Assembly (NCBI GenBank): GCA_019429465.1
Contig: JAHYIV010000019.1
Coordinates: 1 to 49,421, forward strand
Direction: 5' to 3'
DNA: 49,421 bases
Source: Desulfoarculaceae bacterium
GTDB taxonomy: Bacteria; Desulfobacterota; Desulfobulbia; Desulfobulbales; Desulfocapsaceae
The position numbers were made by a program, and so were the translations under genes. The notes below the pieces were generated by a model. The model did no database searches. It had not been told where the DNA came from and saw only the letters and a program-made list of their open reading frames with translations. Shown in pieces: positions 5,936 to 49,421 of this stretch; position 1 is the stretch's first letter; every line of letters starts with the position of its first letter.

Positions 5936-6228
5936 GATGTATCTCTTAAGCATTAGGAAACAACTCACAGGGCAAATGCCCGGGGTCGCGGCATCCCATT
6001 CATTGAGGCACGCCCGGAAGAAAGCAGGCCTGGAGGATGAAGCACGACTGCTGCAAAGGCAACTTTTTCATCCTCCTCTTTACACATCCAGCCCTGTTCC
6101 TGCAAGGGGGAAAGAAATCGGGTACCTATCCTACAGCACCTCATCTGCTTCGTCATCGGCCTGCTCATGTACGAATCAGTACACTTCGCAGGCCTCTTTT
6201 TCGCATATGAGGCGCTGCTGGATAGTTA
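5936..6228. other. Non-coding interval with small inverted repeat
   Basis: I see no convincing gene. A 10-bp perfect inverted repeat GGAGGATGAA (6032-6041) / TTCATCCTCC (6067-6076) is present. The promoter for the dgt run should lie here but I could not place it. The interval ends at the 6-bp target duplication of the adjacent MITE. Confidence 0.5.
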
Positions 6229-6369
6229 GTGCCTGTCCATAAATGTCCCTTTCGCCCGATCTCTGCGTCATGCTCAAAAAATAATGCTCGGAATATCGTA
6301 CATATGCCTGTGCTTATTTTTCTCGCAGTCCTTGATCTCGAACGAAATGACCTATTTCTGGACAGACAC
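6229..6369 (-). mobile_element. 141-bp MITE, copy 1
   Basis: Non-coding element of 141 bp with imperfect terminal inverted repeats starting GTGTCTGTCCA. It is flanked by the 6-bp direct repeat TAGTTA (6223-6228 and 6370-6375), read as a target site duplication. By eye it differs from the inverted copy at 9199-9339 at three positions. No transposase lies inside. It interrupts a sequence that contains CTGGATAGTTAC, a motif that recurs at 6411-6422. Confidence 0.88.
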
Positions 6370-6436
6370 TAGTTACGTGACATGTGTTTTGGCATTTTCC
6401 CGGCATTAAGCTGGATAGTTACAGAAATCGGAAGAG

Positions 6437-7679: not shown

Positions 7680-8026
7680 CAGCGAAGTCTGCGAGACTTC
7701 GCAAATTCAACGTCACAACGGAGATGGCTAAGCGAAAAGGCCCAAAGACAAGGCGCACCAATCCTGAGGAATGAGTGCCGCTCTTCAACCATCCATGGAG
7801 CGAGCGACACTGGGGCGTCCCTGCCCTGCGCGTACTGTCGGCTACGCCGCAGTGACGAAGGACGCAGCGCAACGAAGTATTTGGCCTTTTCACAACAAAA
7901 TTGGCTAAGCCAAAAGGCCCAAAGACGAGGCGCGCAAGTCCTGAGGAATGAGGCGTACTGTTGGGTACGCCGCAGTGACGAAGGACGCAGCGCAACGAAG
8001 TATTTGGGCCTTTTGGCGACGCCATC
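7680..8026. repeat. Two tandem diverged copies of the stop-codon-associated element
   Basis: Two diverged units (about 7894-8026 and 7710-7893) share the core of the 179-bp element at 27300: GGCTAAG, AGGAATGAG, TACGCCGCAGTGACGA and CAACGAAG. The distal unit carries an extra segment around 7775-7835. The proximal end (GATGGCGTCG on the minus strand, 8017-8026) starts inside the prfB TGA stop. A short palindrome GCGAAGTC/GACTTCGC lies at 7680-7700. Long open frames across this region are artefacts. Confidence 0.8.
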
Positions 8027-9135
8027 ATTTTTCCCACAGCAAGTAGGCCTTGATAAAGGGATCCAGGTTGCCGTCAAGCACGGCATCCACATTGCCGACC
8101 TCAACGTCTGTACGATGATCCTTGATCAGACGATAGGGCTGCAGGACATAGGAGCGGATCTGACTGCCCCAGGAGATCCCTTTTTTGTCGCCGTGCAGAT
8201 CATCCTTGGCCTCGTCCTGTTTTTCCTTGCCCAGTTCATAGAGACGGGAGGTCAGCATCTTCATGGCCGTATCCTTGTTCCGATGCTGGGAGCGCTCATT
8301 CTGACACTGCACCACGATACCCGTTGGCAGATGGGTAAGCCGGATGGCCGAATCCGTCTTATTGACATGCTGCCCGCCGGAACCGCTGGCCCGGTAGGTG
8401 TCAATACGCAGATCCTTATCCAGGATCTCCACCTCAATGGTCTCATCGAGTTCCGGCATGACCATGACCGAAGAAAAGGAGGTGTGACGCCGACCACTGG
8501 CATCAAAGGGCGAGATGCGCACCAGGCGATGGATCCCCACCTCCGAGCGCAGATAGCCATAGGCATTATGTCCCGTGACCATAAGGGTCACACCCTTGAC
8601 CCCGGCCTCATCACCAGGCAGATAATCGAGGATATCGGTTTTGAGACCTTTCTGCTCGGCCCAGCGCAGATACATGCGCAGAAGAATACTGGCCCAATCC
8701 TGGGCCTCGGTGCCGCCGGCACCGGCATGGATATCGACGATCGCATTGCTGGCATCATGCTCGCCGCTGAGCATGCACTCCACCTCGGCAAGGGCAATAC
8801 GTTCCTGCATGGGGTCAATCGTGGCGGCCACCTCATGCTCTATAGCGGAGTCATTCTCCTCCATGGCCATATCCAGGAGCATTTCCATCTCCTCCAGCTC
8901 TTCCCACTTTCCTTCCCAGCTTTTGATGATATCCTGGAGCTGCCCATGTTCTTTTTGCACCTTCTTGGCGACATTAGCATCGTTCCAGAAATTCGGCGCC
9001 AGGGTCTGCTGTTCAAGCCGTTCCAGTTGATCTTTTTTGTGATCTAAGTCAAAGATGCTCCTTGAGGGCCAGCAATCTCCCCTTCAGTTCCTGAATCTTT
9101 TGCCTGGATACCGCAGCTCCTGTTTCTGTTGACAT
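8025..9135 (-). CDS. prfB: Peptide chain release factor 2, with programmed +1 frameshift
   Basis: RF2 recognises UGA and UAA and triggers peptide release on the ribosome. The first 28 codons (ATG at 9135, after GGGAG) end in CTT followed by an in-frame TGA. A +1 slip at CTTTGAC joins them to the main frame, giving about 369 aa. The codon-reading motif SPF (in SPFDASGRRHT) and the catalytic GGQ (in GSGGQHVNK, near residue 250) are present. A gene caller that ignores the shift would start at about 8960 and lose the N-terminal helix. The stop TGA overlaps the end of a dispersed repeat. It lies upstream of the Fe-S oxidoreductase on the same strand. Confidence 0.97.
9048..9063 (-). promoter_or_regulatory. 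prfB +1 recoding site
   Basis: The minus strand reads AAGGAGCATCTTTGAC. It has an internal Shine-Dalgarno-like AGGAG, a short spacer, the slippery CTT codon, the in-frame TGA stop (9049-9051, codon 29) and a following C. This is the canonical RF2 autoregulatory site: low RF2 slows termination at UGA and favours the frameshift. Confidence 0.96.
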
Positions 9136-9198
9136 GATCACTCCCTACAAAAAAAAAAGTTATAACGTACTGATTCACCATATAAACATATTCAACTA

Positions 9199-9339
9199 GT
9201 GTCTGTCCAGAAATAGGTCATTTCGTTCGAGATCAAGGATTGCGAGAAAAATAAGCACAGGCATATGTACGATATTCCGAGCATTATTTTTTGAGCATGA
9301 CGCAGAGATCGGGCGAAAGGGACATTTATGAACAGACAC
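9199..9339 (+). mobile_element. 141-bp MITE, copy 2
   Basis: Inverted copy of the element at 6229-6369, of the same length. The ends are GTGTCTGTCC and GAACAGACAC. It is flanked by the direct repeat CAACTA (9193-9198 and 9340-9345), a 6-bp target duplication. It lies about 65 bp upstream of the prfB start and abuts the palindromic repeat at 9341. Confidence 0.9.
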
Positions 9340-9340
9340 C

Positions 9341-9420
9341 AACTAACCCCGATGAACGGGACACGTGCCTTTCGCGGATTATTTTCTGGCAAAAAAACAA
9401 GGAAATAATCTGTTAGGCAC
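9341..9420. repeat. 80-bp palindromic repeat, uninterrupted copy
   Basis: Begins AACTAACCCCGATGAACGGG and then forms a long hairpin. The arms around GTGCCTTTCGCGGATTATTT and AAATAATCTGTTAGGCAC are imperfectly complementary. A second copy at 44478-44612 matches it but carries an extra 49 bp in the loop. It ends 9 nt past the lnt stop and may serve as its transcript end. Confidence 0.8.
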
Positions 9421-27199: not shown

Positions 27200-27253
27200 C
27201 CCGCAGAGACGCTGAGAAGGACAAAGAAAAAATTTTCTCAGCGTCTCTGCGGG
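27200..27253. repeat. 19-bp-arm palindrome
   Basis: CCCGCAGAGACGCTGAGAA (27200-27218) is perfectly complementary to 27235-27253, with a 16-nt A-rich loop. It resembles a dispersed repeat built on GCAGAGACGC that occurs in many bacterial genomes (from memory). A related CTCTGTGTCTCTGTG run is at 45060-45081. Confidence 0.85.
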
Positions 27254-27299
27254 AGATCAATCCTGAAGTCCGTAAATAGCTGCATACTTACAATAACTT

Positions 27300-27478
27300 G
27301 ATGGTTTCGTAAAAACTCAATTTCTGGGATGGCTAAGTAAAAAGCGTCAAATGCGAGGCGCGCAAATTTCGAGGAATGAGGCGTACTTGAGTACGCCGCA
27401 GTGACGAGATAATTCGGAGTCTCGCAAGCTCGCTTACCTGCAGCAACGAAGCAGTTGGCGACTTTTTACGACGCCATC
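27300..27478 (-). mobile_element. 179-bp MITE-like element, copy A
   Basis: The ends GATGGTTTCGTAAAAACT and, inverted, GATGGCGTCGTAAAAAGT form an imperfect 18-bp terminal inverted repeat. The direct repeat AATAACTT flanks it exactly (27292-27299 and 27479-27486). The inside has a hairpin GGCGTACTTGAGTACGCC. It is nearly identical to copy B at 30859. On the minus strand it begins 6 nt after the stop of the isochorismatase-family gene. Confidence 0.88.
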
Positions 27479-27484
27479 AATAAC

Positions 27485-28087
27485 TTAGACCACGTATGGC
27501 AGCATGGCCTTGAACTCCGGGGTTCCGGCCCGACCCAGCAACTCATAAATGATCATCTCGGCAGGTCCGACAATGGCCCCTGCCGCACTCAGGCGGGCCA
27601 ACCCCAGTTCATGATTGGCCCTGGTGCGCGAAGAGACCGCGTCCGCCACCACCCAGGGGGTCAGCCCTCGTTCGAGGGCGCCCATGGCCGTCTGATAGAG
27701 ACAGATGTGGGTCTCTACCCCTGCCAGGATCAGCGTGGTCACAGAATCCGGCAGCTTATCGACCAGGGCCCGTGTCTCGATGTTGGCCAAGGCATTAAAC
27801 TCGGTTTTATCAGGGCGGGGAATGTCCGTCATCATCTCTTCCAGCGGAGGCACATACGAGCCCAATCCCTTCTTATACTGGGTGTTGGCCAAAACGGACA
27901 TTTTGAGGATCCTGGCGCACTCAATCAGCCGGATGATATTGGCGGTCACCCGCTCAGCTTCATGGATATGGGCCATCAGGGCCTGTTGCGGATCTATAAT
28001 ATGCAGACAACAGTGTTCAGGTCGTACCAATAAAACGCTCATATCTTCTATCCCCCACGTCGTTTCCGCGCCATCCATGGCATCCAT
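27485..28087 (-). CDS. Isochorismatase-family cysteine hydrolase
   Basis: Alpha/beta hydrolase with the Asp-Lys-Cys triad: D32 in IIDPQ, K94 in DKTEFNAL and C129 in GVETHICLY. The length of 200 aa and lack of extra domains fit the YcaC/nicotinamidase-related group; the real substrate cannot be read. The start may be ATG 28087 or ATG 28042 (MSVLLVRPEHC), the latter with GGGG at a suitable distance. It has no operon partner; a repeat element begins 6 nt after the stop, and the target duplication covers part of the stop codon. Confidence 0.88.
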   Translation of the reverse strand: MDAMDGAETTWGIEDMSVLLVRPEHCCLHIIDPQQALMAHIHEAERVTANIIRLIECARILKMSVLANTQYKKGLGSYVPPLEEMMTDIPRPDKTEFNALANIETRALVDKLPDSVTTLILAGVETHICLYQTAMGALERGLTPWVVADAVSSRTRANHELGLARLSAAGAIVGPAEMIIYELLGRAGTPEFKAMLPYVV

Positions 28088-28230
28088 GGCCGTCGCCTGA
28101 CCCTTCCCCTTCAGCGGAGAGGGTATTTTTTATCTTTTTACAAGAGGACCAATACTATAAACTTTGCGTCGCTATCGCTACCCTTTTTCTCTCAGAGATT
28201 CTATCTTTTCTTCGTAAATATTCGAGCCCA

Positions 28231-28292
28231 AACGGCTTACGCAGGACACATGCAAATAAGCCGTTGACATCACCACCTGCGGTTAGTATAAA
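28231..28292 (+). promoter_or_regulatory. Strong promoter with palindromic operator before the symporter genes
   Basis: TTGACA (28264-28269), a 17-nt spacer and TATAAA (28287-28292) make a near-consensus promoter. A 9-bp perfect inverted repeat AACGGCTTA (28231-28239) / TAAGCCGTT (28257-28265) overlaps the -35 edge and would suit a regulator. Downstream, GCCGCATATGCGGC followed by GGTTTTTATT (about 28308-28331) could form a small attenuator hairpin. Confidence 0.75.
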
Positions 28293-28362
28293 GATTTTCT
28301 TTATCCTGCCGCATATGCGGCGGTTTTTATTCACAAAAAGTCAATAAAAAAAGGAGCAAGGC

Positions 28363-28614
28363 ATGAACAACGCGCAGAAGTACTGGCAGGCAAACATCCG
28401 ACTCGTTATCGGCTGCCTGATTGTCTGGTTTTTCGTTTCATTCGGCTGCGGCATCCTGTTTGTCGATCAGCTGAACGCCTTTCGCCTGGGCGGCTATCCG
28501 CTCGGTTTCTGGTTTGCCCAGCAAGGTTCAATCTACGTCTTTGTGGCCCTGATTTTCATCTACGCCTGGCGTATGAATCAGCTTGATCGTAAATTCAACG
28601 TCGAAGAAGCGTAA
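28363..28614 (+). CDS. DUF4212 sodium/substrate symporter small subunit
   Basis: An 83-aa membrane protein with two hydrophobic helices (LVIGCLIVWFFVSFGCGILF and GSIYVFVALIFIYAW) and a charged tail. It matches the small subunit that accompanies large SSS symporters of the VC_2705 type. AAGGAG precedes the ATG. It is followed after 11 nt by the large subunit. Acetate or another short-chain acid is the likely cargo, inferred from acs nearby. Confidence 0.93.
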   Translation: MNNAQKYWQANIRLVIGCLIVWFFVSFGCGILFVDQLNAFRLGGYPLGFWFAQQGSIYVFVALIFIYAWRMNQLDRKFNVEEA

Positions 28615-28625
28615 GGAGACCGGAC

Positions 28626-30500
28626 ATGACAAATCTAATGCTCACCACCTACATCGTAGTCGGGGGGACCTTTGCCCTCTATTTCTATATTGCCATTAAA
28701 ACACGGGCCAAAAACACCGGCGAGTTCTACGTCGCCGGCAAGGGCGTCCATCCGGTCCTCAACGGCATGGCCACCGGCGCCGACTGGATGTCAGCCGCCT
28801 CCTTCATCTCCATGGCCGGTATGCTGGCCATGGGCGGCTATGACGCCTCTGCCTATCTGATGGGCTGGACCGGCGGCTACTGCCTGCTGGCCATGCTCCT
28901 GGCCCCCTATCTCCGCAAGTATGGCAAATTCACGGTCCCTGAGTTTATCGGCGACCGCTTCTACTCCCAGACCGCCCGCCTGGTCGCCGTTCTCTGCCTG
29001 ATTGTTGCCTCCCTGACCTATGTTATCGGTCAGATGAAAGGGATCGGCGTCGCCTTTTCCCGTTTCCTTGAGATCCCCTTTCAGACCGGGCTGTTCATCG
29101 GCATGGGTATCGTCTTTTTCTATGCCGTTCTCGGCGGGATGAAGGGCGTCACCTACACCCAGATCGCCCAGTACGTGGTTCTGATCTTTGCCTACACCGT
29201 CCCTGCCATCTTCATCTCCCTGCAACTCACCGGCAATCCCATTCCTCAACTTGGCCTGGGTTCAACCATGAGCGACGGCAATGGGGTGTATCTGCTTGAC
29301 AAGCTGGACCAGATCGTCGTCGATCTCGGTTTCAGCGCCTATACCGCCCAGAAGGGAAGCACCCTCAATATCTTCCTGCTGACCATGTCCCTGATGATCG
29401 GTACCGCCGGTCTGCCGCATGTGATAGCCCGATTTTTCACCGTACCCAAAGTCAAGGACGCCCGTTCTTCCGCCGGCTGGGCCCTTGTTTTCATTGCCCT
29501 TCTTTATACCACGGCCCCTGCGGTTGGAGCCATGGCCCGCATCAACCTGACCAATACCGTGCAGACCGGCGAGATCGGCGCAGCTGAAGGCAATGTTGCC
29601 ATCGATGAACGTCCGCAGTGGATGCTCAACTGGGAGAAGACCGGACTTCTCGCCTTTGCCGACCAGAATGGCGACGGCCGGATCCAGTACTACAACGACG
29701 GCGGATTAACTGATGCCAGAATTGCCCTGGCCGGTGCCCAGGCAGCAGGTGGGGACGTAGCCGCCGCTCAGGCCAGGTTCGACGCTGCCGAGCTGAAACA
29801 CGCCGGCACCAAGTTTGCCGGTTTTGGCTGGCAGGGAAACGAGATGACCAAGGTTGACAATGACATCATGGTGCTCGCCAACCCTGAGATCGCCAAGCTT
29901 CCCAACTGGGTCATTGCCCTGGTGGCAGCCGGTGGTATCGCCGCCGCCCTCTCTACTGCCGCCGGTCTGCTCCTGGCCATCTCTTCAGCCATATCCCATG
30001 ATCTGGTGAAGGGCATGATCGCTAAAACTATAGATGACAAGACCGAGCTGCTGTGGGGTCGTATTTCCATGATCGGTGCCATTATTGTTGCCGGCTACCT
30101 CGGTCTCAACCCCCCGGGATTTGCCGCCCAGGTGGTTGCCCTGGCCTTTGGTCTTGCCGCCTCGTCCATCTTCCCGGCCCTGATGATGGGGATCTTTGTC
30201 AAACGGATGAACAATGTGGGTGCCATCTGCGGCATGCTGACAGGCCTTGGTTCCACCCTGCTCTATATCTTCTGGTACAAGGGATTCTTCTTTATCGCCT
30301 CTACCGCCATGGCACCGGACACTCCGGAGAACTGGCTATTCGGCATCTCCACCGGCTCGTTTGGCGCAGTGGGTGCCCTGCTGAATTTCATCGTCGCCTT
30401 TGTGGCTTCAAGCCTTAGCAAGGCGCCGCCGGAGCATATTCAGCTTCTCGTTGAGGACATCCGTGTCCCCATGGGCGCAGGAGCTGCCCAGAGCCACTGA
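28626..30500 (+). CDS. Sodium:solute symporter large subunit (VC_2705 family, acetate-type)
   Basis: Member of the solute:sodium symporter family, 624 aa, about 13 hydrophobic segments. Family features include FYVAGKGVHPVLNGMATGADWMSAASF and GGMKGVTYTQIAQY, given by their cores VAGKGVHPVLNG and GMKGVTYTQ. A soluble insert (about 300-420) interrupts the membrane helices and contains an EF-hand-like loop DQNGDGRIQYYN (346-357). Position 12 is Asn instead of Glu. Such inserts occur in this subfamily. It pairs with DUF4212 upstream and probably moves acetate with sodium for acetyl-CoA synthetase. A strong terminator follows. Confidence 0.92.
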   Translation: MTNLMLTTYIVVGGTFALYFYIAIKTRAKNTGEFYVAGKGVHPVLNGMATGADWMSAASFISMAGMLAMGGYDASAYLMGWTGGYCLLAMLLAPYLRKYGKFTVPEFIGDRFYSQTARLVAVLCLIVASLTYVIGQMKGIGVAFSRFLEIPFQTGLFIGMGIVFFYAVLGGMKGVTYTQIAQYVVLIFAYTVPAIFISLQLTGNPIPQLGLGSTMSDGNGVYLLDKLDQIVVDLGFSAYTAQKGSTLNIFLLTMSLMIGTAGLPHVIARFFTVPKVKDARSSAGWALVFIALLYTTAPAVGAMARINLTNTVQTGEIGAAEGNVAIDERPQWMLNWEKTGLLAFADQNGDGRIQYYNDGGLTDARIALAGAQAAGGDVAAAQARFDAAELKHAGTKFAGFGWQGNEMTKVDNDIMVLANPEIAKLPNWVIALVAAGGIAAALSTAAGLLLAISSAISHDLVKGMIAKTIDDKTELLWGRISMIGAIIVAGYLGLNPPGFAAQVVALAFGLAASSIFPALMMGIFVKRMNNVGAICGMLTGLGSTLLYIFWYKGFFFIASTAMAPDTPENWLFGISTGSFGAVGALLNFIVAFVASSLSKAPPEHIQLLVEDIRVPMGAGAAQSH

Positions 30501-30537
30501 TCCAGCAAGGCAGGTTCGTACCTGCCTGAGCGCACAA

Positions 30538-30580
30538 TAAAAAAAGGCCTCCGTAACAGAAGTTACGGAGGCCTTTTTTT
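30538..30580. terminator. Rho-independent terminator of the symporter operon
   Basis: A stem of GGCCTCCGTAAC/GTTACGGAGGCC with loop AGAA has A6 before it and T7 after it. It is located 38 nt after the symporter stop. Confidence 0.94.
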
Positions 30581-30589
30581 ATTCCCACC

Positions 30590-30790
30590 CCGTCACTGCG
30601 AGACGCGCAGCAAGGTGGCAGTCCAGAGGTGTGGGGCCATGGTCACTAAGACCTCCGGCGTTACTTCACCCCCGTTCGTACACACGGGCCGGGTCCCCTG
30701 GATTGCTTCGCTGCCGCTCGCAAAGACGGGCAGACCATGGTCACTAAGACCTCCGGCGTTACTTCACCACCGTTCGCACAGACGGGCCGC
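30590..30790. repeat. CCGTCACTGCGAG element, long form plus partial unit
   Basis: A 140-bp copy (30590-30729) begins CCGTCACTGCGAG and ends CTCGCAAAGACGG, imperfect inverted ends. A truncated second unit (30730-30790) repeats the internal GACCTCCGGCGTTACTTCACC. Open frames through it are not genes. Confidence 0.85.
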
Positions 30791-30858
30791 GATAGAATGC
30801 GGCCGTTGGCGCTCATTCTCCCGAGGGGGAGAACAAATTTACCGTGAGGTCCGCCCTT

Positions 30859-31038
30859 GATGGTTTCGTAAAAACTCAATTTCTGGGATGGCTAAGTAAA
30901 AAAGCGTCAAATGCGAGGCGCGCAAATTTCGAGGAATGAGGCGTACTTGAGTACGCCGCAGTGACGAGATAATTCGGAGTCTCGCAAGCTCGCTTACCTG
31001 CAGCAACGAAGCAGTTGGCGACTTTTTACGACGCCATC
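30859..31038 (-). mobile_element. 180-bp MITE-like element, copy B
   Basis: It differs from copy A (27300-27478) by one extra A and almost nothing else. It has the same ends. A shorter direct repeat CCCTT flanks it (30854-30858 and 31040-31044), offset by one base on the right. On the minus strand it begins 4 nt after the ilvC stop. Confidence 0.88.
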
Positions 31039-31042
31039 ACCC

Positions 31043-32515
31043 TTACATGATTGCCTTCATTGCGCCCATATAGGAACGGAGCTCCTCACCGATCATCTCA
31101 ACCCCGGTGAAACGGATCGCCTCGTTGACGGCAATCAACTGGACGTTATCAACACCGTTATCCTGCAAGGCCAGTCCCGCACCGATCACATCGGAATCAA
31201 TATCCTTCATGAAATCAGCCAGCAGGGGTGCTGCTGCATGGGCAAAGAGGTAACTCCCATATTCAGCGGTATCAGAGATAACCACGTTCATCTCATAGAG
31301 CTTTTTACGGGCAACGGTATTGGCAATCAGCGGCAGCTCATGCAGGGACTCGTAATAGGCGGATTCCTCCTTGATACCGGTGGCAACCATAGTGTCAAAG
31401 GCCAGCTCCACCCCGGCCTTGACCATGGCGATCATGAGGATGCCGTGATCAAAATATTCCTGTTCGGGGATGACGGCCGTGGTCGAAAGCGCCTTCTCAA
31501 ATCCTGTTTTTGCCGTCTGCGCCCGCCATTTCAGAAGATTGACATCATCTTTGGCCCAGTCCTTCATCATGGTCTTGGAAAAATGTCCGGACATGATATC
31601 ATCCATATGTTTCTCAAAGAGAGGGCGCAGGAGAGCCTTCAATTCCTCGGAGAGGGTGAAGGCCATAATCTTGGCCGGGTTCGTCAGACGATCCATCATA
31701 TTGGTGATACCGCCATGCTTCAGGGCCTCGGTAATGGTCTCCCAGCCGTTCTGAATCAGTTTGGAGGCATAGGCGGAGTCGATTCCCTTGTTGATCATCT
31801 TGTCGAAACAGAGCAGTGATCCGGCCTGGAGCATACCGCAGAGGATGGTCTGCTCGCCCATGAGATCAGATTTCACCTCGGCCACAAAAGAGGACTGGAG
31901 AACACCGGCACGATCCGCCCCGGTGCCGCAGGCATAGGCCTTGGCCAGTTCCCAGCCCTTGCCCTGCGGGTCATTTTCGCGATGAACAGCGATCAGGGTA
32001 GGCACCCCGAAACCACGCTTGTACTCTTCCCGCACCTCGGTGCCGGGAGACTTGGGGGCCACCATAATAACGGTGAGATCCTCACGGATCCGCATCCCCT
32101 CTTCGACGATATTAAAACCGTGAGAATAAGAGAGACAGGCACCCTTCTTCATCAGGGGCATGATGGAGTTAACCACCTTGGTATGTTGCTTGTCCGGAGT
32201 CAGATTGATGACCAGATCGGCCTTGGGGATCAGTTTTTCAATGGTGCCGACGGTAAAACCATTGGTGCTGGCATTTTTGAAAGACTGCCGCTTCTCGCTG
32301 ATGGCCGCTTCCCGGAGGGCATAAGAGATATCAAGACCGCTGTCCCTGAGGTTCAGCCCCTGGTGCAACCCTTGAGCGCCACAGCCGACAATGACGATCT
32401 TCTTGCCGAGCAGGGCCTCGACCCCGTCAAACTCGGAAGCGTCCATAAACCGACACTGACCCAGCTCCTGAAGCTGCAGCCGTAACGGCAGGCTGTTGAA
32501 ATAGTTTTGTCCCAT
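31043..32515 (-). CDS. ilvC: Ketol-acid reductoisomerase, class II (long form)
   Basis: Isomerises and reduces acetolactate or acetohydroxybutyrate with NADPH in valine, leucine and isoleucine synthesis. The Rossmann loop [20 protein letters not shown], then [61 protein letters not shown] and [10 protein letters not shown] are all present. At 490 aa it has the duplicated C-terminal domain of the long enteric-type enzyme. AGGAG precedes the ATG. No other ilv or leu genes are near. A repeat starts 4 nt after its stop, and it sits within an acetate gene group, so it may have been inserted there. Confidence 0.97.
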
Positions 32516-35343: not shown

Positions 35344-35408
35344 TTTCACACCCCCTGTTGACTATTGATACGTAAACGCCACGAGAACCGCATTTTATTC
35401 GCCGCCAC

Positions 35409-35921
35409 CCGTCACTGCGAGGCGCGCAGCAACGTGGCAGTCCAGGGAGGTGGGGGCCACGGTCGCCAGGACCTCCGGCGTTACTTCACCCCCCTTCGTA
35501 CAAACGGACCGCATCCTCTGGATTGCTTCGCTGCCGCTCGCAAAGACGGGCAGGCCACGGTCGCCATGACCTCCTGCGTTACTTCACCCCCCTTCGTACA
35601 AACGGACCGCATCCTCTGGATTGCTTCGCTGCCGCTCGCAAAGACGGGCAGGCCACGGTCGCCAGGACCTCCTGCGTTACTTCACCCCCCTTCGTACAAA
35701 CGGACCGCATCCTCTGGATTGCTTCGCTGCCGCTCGCAAAGACGGGCAGGCCACGGTTGCCAGGACCTCCGGCGTTACTTCACCCCCCTTCGTACAAACG
35801 GACCGCATCCTCTGGATTGCTTCGCTGCCGCTCGCAAAGACGGGCAGGCCACGGTCGCCAGGACCTCCGGCGTTACTTCACCCCCTTCGTACAAACGGAC
35901 CGCATCCTCTGGATTGCTTGA
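35409..35921. repeat. Tandem array of 98-bp units
   Basis: A full left end (CCGTCACTGCGAGGCGCG) at 35409 is followed by repeated right-half units. GGATTGCTTCG starts at 35520, 35618, 35716, 35814 and 35911, giving a period of 98, 98, 98 and 97 bp. Units differ by only a few bases, so the expansion is recent. Because 98 is not a multiple of three, open frames of up to 229 codons cross it without being genes. Confidence 0.93.
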
Positions 35922-35927
35922 TTTATC

Positions 35928-36076
35928 GTTCCCACGCTCCGGCGTGGGAATGCAGCCCCAGACGCTCCAGCGTCGCATTTCAAACAACAACTCCCCCTTA
36001 TACGCCGGAGCATATCGGGCTGTGTTCCCACGCAGGAGCGTGGGAACAATGTAATGTACACGCGTGGGAACAATGT
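35928..36076. repeat. Cluster of TTCCCACGC palindromes
   Basis: TTCCCACGCTCCGGCGTGGGAA (written here as arms TTCCCACGC and GCGTGGGAA, 35929-35950) forms a tight hairpin. A second hairpin GTTCCCACGC/GCGTGGGAAC is at 36024-36047 and a half copy at 36061-36071. A related hairpin with arms GTTCCCATGC/GCATGGGAAC lies near 42613-42637. Confidence 0.8.
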
Positions 36077-40549: not shown

Positions 40550-40748
40550 GCTGGCGCTCGCAAAGACGGACAGGCCATGGTAGCCAGGATCTCCCGGGTT
40601 ACCATGGCCGTCACTGCGAGGCGCGCCAGCAACGCGGCAGTCCAGGGGTGTGCGGCCATGGTCGCCAATACCTCCCCCCTTACTTCACCCCTCTTGGCAC
40701 AGACCAGCCGCATCCTCTGGATTGCTTCGCTGCCGCTCGCAAAGACGG
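40550..40748. repeat. CCGTCACTGCGAG element, long form, with upstream half copy
   Basis: A full 141-bp copy occupies 40608-40748, and a right-end fragment (GGCGCTCGCAAAGACGG) precedes it at 40553-40569. Its right end stops 4 nt before the abiEii stop codon on the minus strand. The short interval 40330-40549 shows no gene. Confidence 0.85.
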
Positions 40749-42259: not shown

Positions 42260-42319
42260 ACGAATGAGGCCAGGGTCACCAGGACCTTCTGGGTTATTTC
42301 ACCGCCCTTCGCCCCACCA

Positions 42320-42575
42320 CCGTCACTGCGAGGAGCGCCACCACCGTCACTGCGAGGCGCGCCAGCAACGCGGCAGTCCAGAAATGTGCGGCCAAGGACG
42401 GTGGTATTTCCTGGATTGCTTCGCTGCCGCTCGCAAAGACGGTGTCACTTGCCCCTTTCACTACACTTCCCCCACTACCGTCACTGCGAGGCGCGCAGCA
42501 ACGCGGCAGTCCAGAAATGTGCGGCCAAGGACGGTGGTATTTCCTGGATTGCTTCGCTGCCGCTCGCAAAGACGG
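42320..42575. repeat. Tandem CCGTCACTGCGAGG elements, short form
   Basis: Two 98-99-bp copies (42344-42442 and 42478-42575) share the inner segment ATGTGCGGCCAAGGACGGTGG. An extra left end lies at 42320-42341. The period is 134 bp including unique spacer. Confidence 0.88.
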
Positions 42576-43109
42576 ATGCACTAGCATCTTCTCAGCCATC
42601 CGTCACCACATCTGGTTCCCATGCGGCGCATGGGAACGAGGAGAAAGTAACCTGGATGGAGCGGCTGCGGAATCCCCGGCCGGTGGCGGTCTCTACCACG
42701 CCCTGCCCCGGATTCCATTGCATTTCATCCAGGCTACTTGCCTGATACTCTGATAGAGACGATTTACCCCCTCACTTACCCCCTCACTTACTCCCTCACC
42801 CTGCCCGAAGGTCACTCATACACCGCAGCCCATCTCTTCCACAGCAAAGATAATCTCCGGGTATGTCTCCAGTTCCTTGCGGGTACGGATAAAGCCGCTG
42901 GCGTCTTTCTCAATGTTTGTAACTATTAAGCATAACGGGGTGAGTCGGGCTTTAGCTCGAAAACAGGGGGTCGTAGCAAGCCCTGCGTCGGGTTGCAACC
43001 CGACCTACACATATAACATTTTGTTTTATTATATTTTTTATCAGGATATGAAGTTTATCGCGTAATCGAGACCAGTGATCCGTCCCTATTTCTATTACCT
43101 TCTCCCTGC
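42576..43109. other. Gene-poor interval with degraded coding remnant
   Basis: No intact gene. A minus-strand stretch 42816-42930 reads IEKDASGFIRTRKELETYP... and ends EEMGCGV before a TGA; it looks like the C-terminal remnant of a protein I cannot name. Also present: a 12-bp repeat TTACCCCCTCAC in three tandem copies (about 42769-42799), a hairpin with arms GTTCCCATGC/GCATGGGAAC near 42613-42637, and the TCGGGTTGCAACCCGA palindrome (42988-43003). Confidence 0.5.
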
Positions 43110-47214: not shown

Positions 47215-47282
47215 CACGACACGAGCAAGGCATCACAGGACCACCCCTTGAACCTTGCGTCTTGAACCTTGAGCCTCCTCCC

Positions 47283-47514
47283 CCGTCACTGCGAGGCGCG
47301 CCAGCAACGCGGCAGTCCAGAAACGTGCGGCCGAGGACGGTGTTATTTCCTGGATTGCTTCGCTGCCGCTCGCAAAGACGGTGTCACTTGCATCCTTTCA
47401 CGCTCCCCCCCCACCACCGTCACTGCGAGGCGCGAAGCAACGCGGCAGTCCAGAAACGTGCGGCCGAGGACGGTGTTATTTCCTGGATTGCTTCGCTGCC
47501 GCTCGCAAAGACGG
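47283..47514. repeat. Tandem CCGTCACTGCGAGG elements, short form
   Basis: Two 98-99-bp copies (47283-47381 and 47417-47514) with a 134-bp period. Both carry ACGTGCGGCCGAGGACGG inside. They end about 45 nt from the stop of the next minus-strand gene. The remaining interval 46860-47282 otherwise holds only the two palindromes. Confidence 0.88.
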
Positions 47515-47559
47515 GCGGGCCGCCTAATCCGTCGCCTCACTCCACCCATCCGTTGCTCT

Positions 47560-48798
47560 TTACGGTTTAAGGGCGGCGATAGGGATCACAGAAACGCCGT
47601 CGTCGCGCAGGTAGCCATAACCAGTGCCGGTGATTACTGCCAGCAGTGAGGGGGGGCCGCACTTGTCGGTATCCACGCGGGCGGCAAATTTCAATAAAGA
47701 GGCAACGCCTTGCTCCACCATCCCCGTCCCCAGTTTTATTTCAAACGCCCCCCAGCGACCATCGGCGCACTGAATCACGGCATCCACCTCCAGCCCCGTA
47801 TTATCCCGATATTGCAACACTTCGGCATCCACGACCTGGGCGTAAACCCGCAGGTCACGAACGACCAGCGATTCAAAGAGAAAACCCAGCAGGTTCATAT
47901 CGTTAAGCAATCCTTCCGGGGTGGCCCGCAATGCCGCAACCGCCAGGGAGGGATCCACGAAATGACGCTTGGCCGCGCTTCTGAGCCGTGACCGTGAACG
48001 TAAATGCGGTGCCCAGGCCGGTTGATCCTCCACAATCATCAGACGTTCCAAACTTGCCAGATACTCCAGTACGGTCTGAACCGTAATGCCGCCGATATCC
48101 TCCGCCATGCCGGTTGCAGACGCATAGGTGCCGGCATTGCGGGCCAGCGAGCGCAGCAACCGGCCGACTTTGTCGGGATCACGGCGAACCCCGTCCACCC
48201 GGCTGATATCCACCCGCCTGATTTCCTCCAGATAGTCCCGGTTGGCCCGCAGGGCTTGTTGAGAGGTCAGGCGCAGATGACCTGGCCAACCACCGACGGC
48301 AATCAGCTCCGTCAGTTCCGGAATATTCAGACCGGGATCGGGACAGGCAGGACGGCCGCCATTCAGTAACTCCGCCAGTGACACGGTCCCTGCGCTTCGC
48401 TCAAGCTCAAACAACGTCATGGGACGCAGTCGCAGCCGTGTCAAACGTCCGGCCCCGGTATGCCGGGTAATATCATCGGCGGGCGCCGCGGAACCGGTCA
48501 GGATGAACTGGCCCGGCGCGTCGCGCTCGTCAACCGTGCGCCGGATATGATTCCAGATGGCGGGTTCAATCTGCCACTCATCGATAAGACGCGGAGTATC
48601 GCCCGCCAATACCAGGCGGGGATCAACCGCTACTGCCTGACGGGCGTTCTCATCGACATCAAGCAATACTTCACTGGCGGCCAGATTCCGGGCTGTTGCC
48701 GTCTTGCCGCAAGCTTTCGGCCCTTCAATCACAACAGCGCCGGTGGATGACAGGCGCTGCCGCAATTCATTGTCCACCACTCTTGAACGATAACGCAT
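47560..48798 (-). CDS. AAA ATPase with DUF4143 domain (second copy)
   Basis: 412 aa. Walker A is EGPKACGKTATARN near 25-38, Walker B is PRLIDEWQ, and FILTGSAAP and RLRPMTLFELE follow as in the family. The C-terminal DUF4143 region has FLFESLVVRDL, then TGLEVDAVIQ and GAFEIKLG (D, ExK arrangement like a degenerate nuclease). It is clearly diverged from the first copy at 43110 and not a recent duplicate. Function is unknown. A GGGGCTGAG ribosome site precedes the ATG. It is isolated between repeat arrays. Confidence 0.9.
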   Translation of the reverse strand: MRYRSRVVDNELRQRLSSTGAVVIEGPKACGKTATARNLAASEVLLDVDENARQAVAVDPRLVLAGDTPRLIDEWQIEPAIWNHIRRTVDERDAPGQFILTGSAAPADDITRHTGAGRLTRLRLRPMTLFELERSAGTVSLAELLNGGRPACPDPGLNIPELTELIAVGGWPGHLRLTSQQALRANRDYLEEIRRVDISRVDGVRRDPDKVGRLLRSLARNAGTYASATGMAEDIGGITVQTVLEYLASLERLMIVEDQPAWAPHLRSRSRLRSAAKRHFVDPSLAVAALRATPEGLLNDMNLLGFLFESLVVRDLRVYAQVVDAEVLQYRDNTGLEVDAVIQCADGRWGAFEIKLGTGMVEQGVASLLKFAARVDTDKCGPPSLLAVITGTGYGYLRDDGVSVIPIAALKP

Positions 48799-49012
48799 CT
48801 CAGCCCCGTTAAACCCAAACTGTTAAGAACAACAATAGCAATAGTCTTATGCCAACAAATGTAACAGAATCAACACAACAAATGCAACAACATTGTCGGG
48901 AGTTTTCAGCTTTGCAAAAACTGAAAACAGATGGGGTGTACGAGAAAGTTTGAGAGTTTCAACTTGCCAACTTGGAAGCCTCCCCATGATAGACCGTCTC
49001 GCACTCCCACCA

Positions 49013-49421
49013 CCGTCACTGCGAGGACCGAAGCAACGCGGCAGTCCAGAAACGTGGAGTCAAGGACGGTGGTATTTCCTGGATTGCTTCGCTGCCGCTC
49101 GCAAAGACGGATGTACTTGCACCTTCGCATCCCGTGGCCCACGACCGTCACTGCGAGGCGCGTCAGCAACGCGGCAGTCCAGAAACGTGGAGTCAAGGAC
49201 GGTGGTATTTCCTGGATTGCTTCGCTGCGCTCGCAAAGACGGATGTGCTTGCATCCTTTCGCCCTTCCCCCCACCCACGTCACTGCGAGGCGCGCAGCAA
49301 CGCGGCAGTCCAGAAACGTGGAGTCAAGGACGGTGGTATTTCCTGGATTGCTTCGCTGCGCTCGCAAAGACGGATGTGCTTGCATCCTTTCGCCCTTCCC
49401 CCCACCCACGTCACTGCGAGG
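49013..49421. repeat. Tandem array of CCGTCACTGCGAGG elements running off the window
   Basis: Copies start at 49013, 49145, 49277 and 49408 (period 132, 132, 131 bp); the last is cut by the window edge. The last two units share even the spacer (TGTGCTTGCATCCTTTCGCC), so this is recent tandem growth. The interval 48799-49012 holds no gene. Confidence 0.92.

Follow-up and report, generated by a model that had tools for sequence, protein, structure and literature searches.

Three copies of a short, geneless repeat, each lying at the stop codon of a different gene, are found in the 49,421-nt contig JAHYIV010000019.1 of Desulfoarculaceae bacterium (GenBank assembly GCA_019429465.1; family Desulfocapsaceae in GTDB), referred to here over its whole length as the window. 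Very probably, these copies belong to a family of non-autonomous DNA transposons, i.e. miniature inverted-repeat transposable elements (MITEs), whose excess near stop codons most likely comes from the target that is chosen, the loss of insertions from coding DNA and the tolerance of insertions at stops. The MITE-like nature proposed in a preliminary description of the window is borne out in that the repeat contains no gene, has inverted ends, is flanked by target duplications and exists in many near-identical, dispersed copies. The family is new, while its kind, the bacterial MITE, is already known.

Copies in the window and their anatomy

The two near-identical elements that had been described, here termed copies A and B, share 99% identity, and the diverged double copy placed near 7680-8026 is likewise real, its two units (7713-7775 and 7890-7952) being 86% alike. 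Pfam identifies the genes preceding the three copies as an isochorismatase-family gene, ilvC and prfB, and the distances from their stop codons had been given correctly as 6 nt, 4 nt and inside the TGA, respectively. The terminal inverted repeats are 18 bp long and imperfect, as stated previously, with 15 of 18 bases identical.

27300-27478, minus strand: MITE copy A, 179 nt long and of the 180-nt form, CG end facing the isochorismatase-family gene
27292-27299: left target-site duplication of copy A, AATAACTT
27479-27486: right target-site duplication of copy A, AATAACTT, sharing two bases with the TAA stop of the gene (27485-27487)
27300-27317, plus strand: outer TT end of copy A, GATGGTTTCGTAAAAACT
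27328-27344, plus strand: inner right end of copy A, GATGGCTAAGTAAAAAG, a second end repeat on the TT side that also occurs in the copies located in relatives
27380-27397: central palindrome of copy A, GGCGTACTTGAGTACGCC
27461-27478, minus strand: CG end of copy A, GATGGCGTCGTAAAAAGT
30859-31038, minus strand: MITE copy B, 180 nt long, its CG end 4 nt past the stop of ilvC and its two duplications differing by one mismatch (AAGGGT/AAGGGC)
30940-30957: central palindrome of copy B
7713-8026, minus strand: old diverged double copy, GATGGCG end overlapping the TGA stop of prfB (8025-8027)
27485-28087, minus strand: isochorismatase-family gene (Pfam), stop 6 nt from the GATGGCG end of copy A
31043-32515, minus strand: ilvC (Pfam), stop 4 nt from the GATGGCG end of copy B
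8025-8960, minus strand: prfB (Pfam), with the GATGGCG end of the diverged copy beginning inside its TGA

The family comes in forms of 155 nt and 180 nt, both too short to encode a transposase. When copy B is read in all six frames, one frame stays open for 59 codons past the junction stop and the others are interrupted by stops.

Copies across the source genome and their target site

The source genome (2.84 Mb in 72 contigs) yields at least 40 matches to the 180-nt query, at least 40 to a 155-nt query and at least 44 to a diverged query, the three lists overlapping. Together, the fetched stretches and the window hold 71 matches to the two forms plus eight pieces of diverged ones. Contigs of this assembly break within the repeat, so that the two parts of some copies lie on different contig ends; the position counts given below therefore use the 48 of the 71 that are interior and have both flanks, excluding 23 contig-edge copies. 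One 155-nt copy (L084:5933-6087) is inserted in an IS4-type transposase gene, i.e. one mobile element lies inside another.

An exact duplication of 6-11 bp flanks 43 of the 48 interior copies. Its length is 6 bp in 34 of them, 7 bp in four, 8 bp in four and 11 bp in one, while the remaining five copies have no exact duplication; the exact 8-bp duplication noted earlier for copy A is present, but it does not represent the norm of the family. The 34 duplications of 6 bp share the consensus YAANNTTR, and exact duplications with an inner base other than T (AAGTAA, AAATAA and AATTTATA) point to GATGG...CCATC as the element proper. R is preferred as the base after the duplication in copies far from stops as well (both strands pooled), with A at 18 and G at 29 of 62 positions in the source genome, and A at 16 and G at 8 of 34 in G030, a one-contig genome from the same family that carries a 162-nt sister element. 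RAYT-linked REP/REPIN sequences and single-strand elements of the IS200/IS605 type are not known to have target-site duplications, a trait that the frequent duplications do not match.

Distance to genes and stop codons

That the element begins right after stop codons had been concluded from the window, and a genome-wide comparison of stop distances with a control had been proposed as a check. Genes were called with a simple hexamer gene caller on sequences from which the element had been removed; at least one gene, that at L084, was missed. Some of the control sites classed as non-coding are actually coding, which makes the p values from wide controls too good and the length-limited figures safer. 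The near-stop interval of -12 to +25 nt was picked after the data from the source genome had been seen and was then fixed before G030 was analysed.

The 48 copies fall between tandem (25), divergent (11) or convergent genes (5), or overlap a gene end or are unassigned (7). None was scored as lying deep in a called gene, as compared with 960 of 1599 AANNTT sites, although at least one copy, that at L084, does lie in a broken gene overlooked by the gene caller. Near-stop positions are occupied by 16 of 48 copies versus 96 of 639 AANNTT sites not deep in genes (7.2 expected, p about 0.001), and a control weighted by the motif of the 31 far-from-stop copies gave 6.9 expected (p 0.0008). Requiring two flanking genes left 16 of 47 copies near a stop (7.5 expected, p 0.002), while restriction to intergenic regions of at most 400 nt or 200 nt gave 15 of 31 (8.9 expected, p 0.015) and 11 of 16 (7.1 expected, p 0.044), respectively.

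For G030, the first 30 places with exact ends, counted along the chromosome, and eight regions fetched as transposon candidates were sampled, providing 36 full copies, or 32 after repeat removal, of about 60. Near-stop positions account for 15 of these 32 (4.6 expected from AANNTT sites, p 1e-5; 5.3 from the motif-weighted control, p 6e-5) and for 15 of 31 when two flanking genes are required (7.7 expected, p 0.004). The corresponding length-limited figures are 15 of 27 at up to 400 nt (9.7 expected, p 0.03) and 14 of 20 at up to 200 nt (10.6 expected, p 0.1).

The stop bias has the same direction in both genomes, yet it is weak, shrinking to roughly 1.3- to 1.9-fold when intergenic length is taken into account. 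Copies are indeed commoner near stops than target-matched sites, and the proposed genome search does reveal an excess (16 of 48 versus 6.9-7.2 expected), but 32 of 48 copies do not lie near a stop and the excess is smaller when length-limited. Neither does the arrangement in the window, where three of three loci sit behind a stop in the same orientation, amount to a genome rule: besides the 16 of 48 near stops and the 11 between divergent genes, the orientation is mixed. Among 17 copies within -14 to +26 of a stop in the source genome, five have the CG end seen in the window towards the gene and 12 the other end, and the 15 near-stop copies of G030 divide into nine with the single end and six with the double end towards the gene. 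The shared orientation of the three window copies, noted previously, looks like a small-sample effect.

Stop codons supplied by the element ends

At either end of the element, a T from the duplication and the adjoining GA of the element form a TGA at the junction in one frame. Where the duplication ends in TT, the second frame meets a TAA at the fifth codon and the third frame continues further, again at both ends. The duplication ends on the first base of the stop in four copies of the source genome and in five of G030 (offset -5); the four former had TGA, TAA, TAG and TAG as their original stops, and every junction now reads TGA. In two genomes of the same genus, G015 and G016, old copies (L299 and L306) start within the TGA of a gene whose last codons encode EKYHK; we take this gene, apparently the same one in both, to be rlmH, and the insertion may have been retained since before the two species split.

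In the mechanism we propose, a DDE-type transposase would act in trans on ends matching GATGGNNTCGYAAAAA. The excess at stops would most likely arise from two sources, the first being an A+T-rich target combined with the loss of insertions in coding DNA. The second would be that insertions into a stop or immediately upstream of it are tolerated, since the T of the duplication and the GA of the element make a new TGA, and the TAA met in the second frame behind a duplication ending in TT would add to this tolerance. Insertions downstream of a gene may also do less harm than those upstream, which might contribute.

Alternatively, the transposase might directly target stop-codon or gene-end DNA, be it via a TYA....TRA-like target or via a DNA structure linked to termination. 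The preference for R after the duplication in far-from-stop copies is consistent with such targeting, as is the survival of the bias under the motif-weighted control in both genomes (16 versus 6.9 and 15 versus 5.3). However, the T-GA register is not clearly over-represented (4 of 17 copies) and is common in near-stop AANNTT control sites too (10 of 104), limiting intergenic length reduces the bias (15 of 31 versus 8.9; in G030, 14 of 20 versus 10.6, p 0.1) and the loss of harmful insertions could yield the same pattern, so that we regard direct targeting as unlikely. Somewhat more doubtful is a MITE group that is harmless by design at gene ends, in which a rebuilt stop, a machinery drawn to stop-codon DNA and a lop-sided hairpin core needed for movement would come together.

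Spread of the family and its conserved core

The end pattern, with at most one mismatch allowed, has at least one place in 92 of 97 genomes including the source genome, whereas the reversed pattern used as a control has one in 58 of 97. Ten or more places are seen in 48 of the 97 genomes, as opposed to never more than five for the reversed control, and the 180-nt query matches 59 of the 97 at E values up to 0.001. With 126 end places, the source genome contrasts with the 0 to 24 found in 16 other genomes of its genus, several of which are incomplete, and this suggests a recent burst of the element.

A 24-base end pattern retrieved 28 stretches of named records, 21 of which are labelled Desulfobulbaceae, Desulfobacteraceae, Desulfobacterales (including Desulfatitalea), Syntrophaceae, Desulfuromonadales or Deltaproteobacteria. 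The remaining seven comprise six from one metagenome-assembled genome labelled only 'bacterium' and one from Bacteroidales. The element had no match in plasmid and phage collections. Within the genus, G014 holds a copy that is 96% identical. A 180-nt copy with 99% identity is found in G083 (L276, L322), which belongs to another family of the order, suggesting either recent transfer between families or a misplaced contig. In addition, a contig labelled Desulfuromonadales KA08 has, at the edge of the stretch taken from it (L271:1-121), an end whose first 40 bases were judged by eye to be the same.

To describe the core, 40 diverged copies were hand-picked from about 150 listed matches of the 180-nt query. 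In 39 of the 40, positions could be assigned to the left end and to the inner right end, and in 34 of these 39 the core, spanning GATGGCGTCGYAAAAA to TTTTTRCTTAGCCATC, measures 125-128 nt; in many, an outer right end follows about ten bases beyond. Diverged copies across the order share a layout, 155 nt in total, in which this hairpin core lies between a single left end and a double right end. Compared with it, the 180-nt form has 25 extra bases, and we consider the 155-nt layout to be probably the older of the two.

The 34 copies and one from the source genome were aligned as 35 rows (alignment A2), excluding five longer forms (L297, L303, L320, L321 and L322). For the inner helix, in which columns 20-29 pair with 107-116, 54 double-changed cells were counted against 21.1 in shuffled and at most 10 in slid controls, with the reservation that the rows are related and that shuffle controls therefore overstate the contrast. 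Six of its nine pairs have changed on both sides (4.6 shuffled), while further pair types show no excess (11 versus 12.6). Over the whole structure, 96 double-changed cells compare with 38.7 in shuffles and 16 pairs with 10.4. The outer end pairs covary too, which can reflect both ends tracking one transposase; the covariation of the inner helix could stem from a hairpin in the DNA, from binding sites that act in pairs or from copying of one arm to the other.

Terminator, promoter and RNA tests

Eleven terminator-like sites were predicted in 27200-31200, none of them within either window copy (27300-27478 or 30859-31038), so that the G+C-rich stem with a following run of T expected of an intrinsic terminator was not predicted there; both copies scanned are of the 180-nt form. 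Neither was a promoter-like site found in the two copies. Rfam reports only two transfer RNAs for the whole window at gathering scores and nothing for 30800-31100 at E values up to 1. For copy B, either strand folds better than its shuffles (z -3.29 and -3.23). Taken over all stems, G-T cells do not outnumber A-C cells (43 versus 62). Helix P3 has 32 G-T versus 13 A-C cells on the CG-end strand and P2 has 3 versus 29, an imbalance owed largely to single column pairs, and neither strand is clearly favoured as RNA.

A conserved small or regulatory RNA family that is mobile would account for the steady core length, the covarying helix and the conserved loops. A possible parallel comes from Geobacter metallireducens, for which one report lists 24 intergenic 'predicted short RNA elements' that centre on the palindrome GRCGTAGCGCTGCTACGCC, and mentions similar sequences in Desulfotalea (PMC2700814). 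Intergenic repeats with a GRCGTA...TACGCC central palindrome are common to both, but the Geobacter elements are described there as RNAs and the likeness of the palindromes was judged by eye, making kinship a lead only. Given also the lack of Rfam matches, of promoter-like sites and of an overall strand preference in the copies and intervals examined above, an RNA family seems improbable to us.

Finally, the portable mRNA 3′ end of the preliminary description, a hairpin that terminates transcription or defines the end of the RNA and whose copies host selection retains behind genes, is very unlikely: the stop excess in two genomes, the folding of both strands of copy B, the covarying inner helix and the G-T excess of P3 speak for it, but they are set against the lack of terminator-like sites and Rfam matches in the window copies, the two thirds of copies away from stops (11 of 48 copies lying between divergent genes), the mixed orientation and the G-T count over all stems.

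Search for an autonomous partner and points against a MITE

Three sets of observations weigh against the reading of the family as a MITE whose stop excess is a by-product of target choice, coding loss and tolerance. First, neither an autonomous partner nor a transposase flanked by these ends turned up in the three transposase families and the places searched, nor did the full-length relative that had been suggested, with a transposase between the same ends. ISNCY-type transposases (NF033594) have matches in 29 of 97 genomes, none over the curated cut-off, and the 30 loci fetched have no end motif on both sides. Of three PF01609 matches in the source genome, two loci have no ends and the remaining match corresponds to the broken L084 gene, and none of four PF00665 matches has ends at 11/14 or better. 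In the loci of relatives, 84 of 201 ends could be paired, and pairs sharing a duplication lie 90-189 nt apart, bar two poor long matches. Open frames inside single ends, judged by reading only, revealed no recognisable transposase. Two kinds of candidate were rejected as autonomous elements: the long end pairs in G062, G066 and G078 are separate ends with host-type genes between them, and those of 2.1 kb and 1.8 kb in G030 are pairs of MITEs.

Second, the source genome shows little avoidance of near-start sites (6 of 48 versus 8.0 expected) and G030 shows none (9 of 32 versus 4.6, or 9 of 27 versus 7.5 when length-limited), which speaks against selection away from starts; these counts also suggest that part of the stop excess is an excess at gene borders in general. 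Third, the compensatory changes in the inner helix exceed what a MITE would need if only its outermost ends mattered.

Comparison with known systems

Four 16-base end strings do not occur in the literature searched. By description, the closest systems are the bacterial MITEs treated in PMC10969869. Among these, Chunjie of Geobacter uraniireducens (235 bp, with 37 further copies of 178-235 bp) is likewise short and geneless, with inverted ends, flanking duplications and many mostly intergenic copies (PMC10969869); the present family is characterised by its end motif, by a right end that is doubled and by duplications of 6 bp at AANNTT. QMITE2 of Coxiella burnetii is reported to lie mainly in 3′ untranslated regions (PMC10969869) and can be likened by description to the present family, of which about a third of the copies lie near stops. 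ERIC, a hairpin-forming MITE of enterobacteria, alters transcript levels when inserted at gene 3′ ends in Yersinia (PMC10969869); the present family resembles it in forming hairpins, again by description, while the hosts differ.

Other repeats in the window

A second repeat family of 155 nt forms a 97% identical inverted pair (6220-6374 and 9194-9348) flanking the prfB region; one of its ends resembles AGTGTCTGTCCA, and it has 30 matches in the source genome. Furthermore, short repeats around GTCACTGCGAGGCGCGCAGCAACG, a 98-nt tandem array plus scattered units, are located at 35357-35944, 30608-30830, 40574-40748, 42269-42622, 47266-47561 and 48996-49421.

Implications

The family represents an abundant group of MITEs in an order that includes genomes labelled Desulfobulbaceae. 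It provides a measured answer to the question of whether such elements prefer gene ends, namely a weak bias and no rule, and it illustrates how a stop codon can be restored at the junction by the terminal bases of the element itself.

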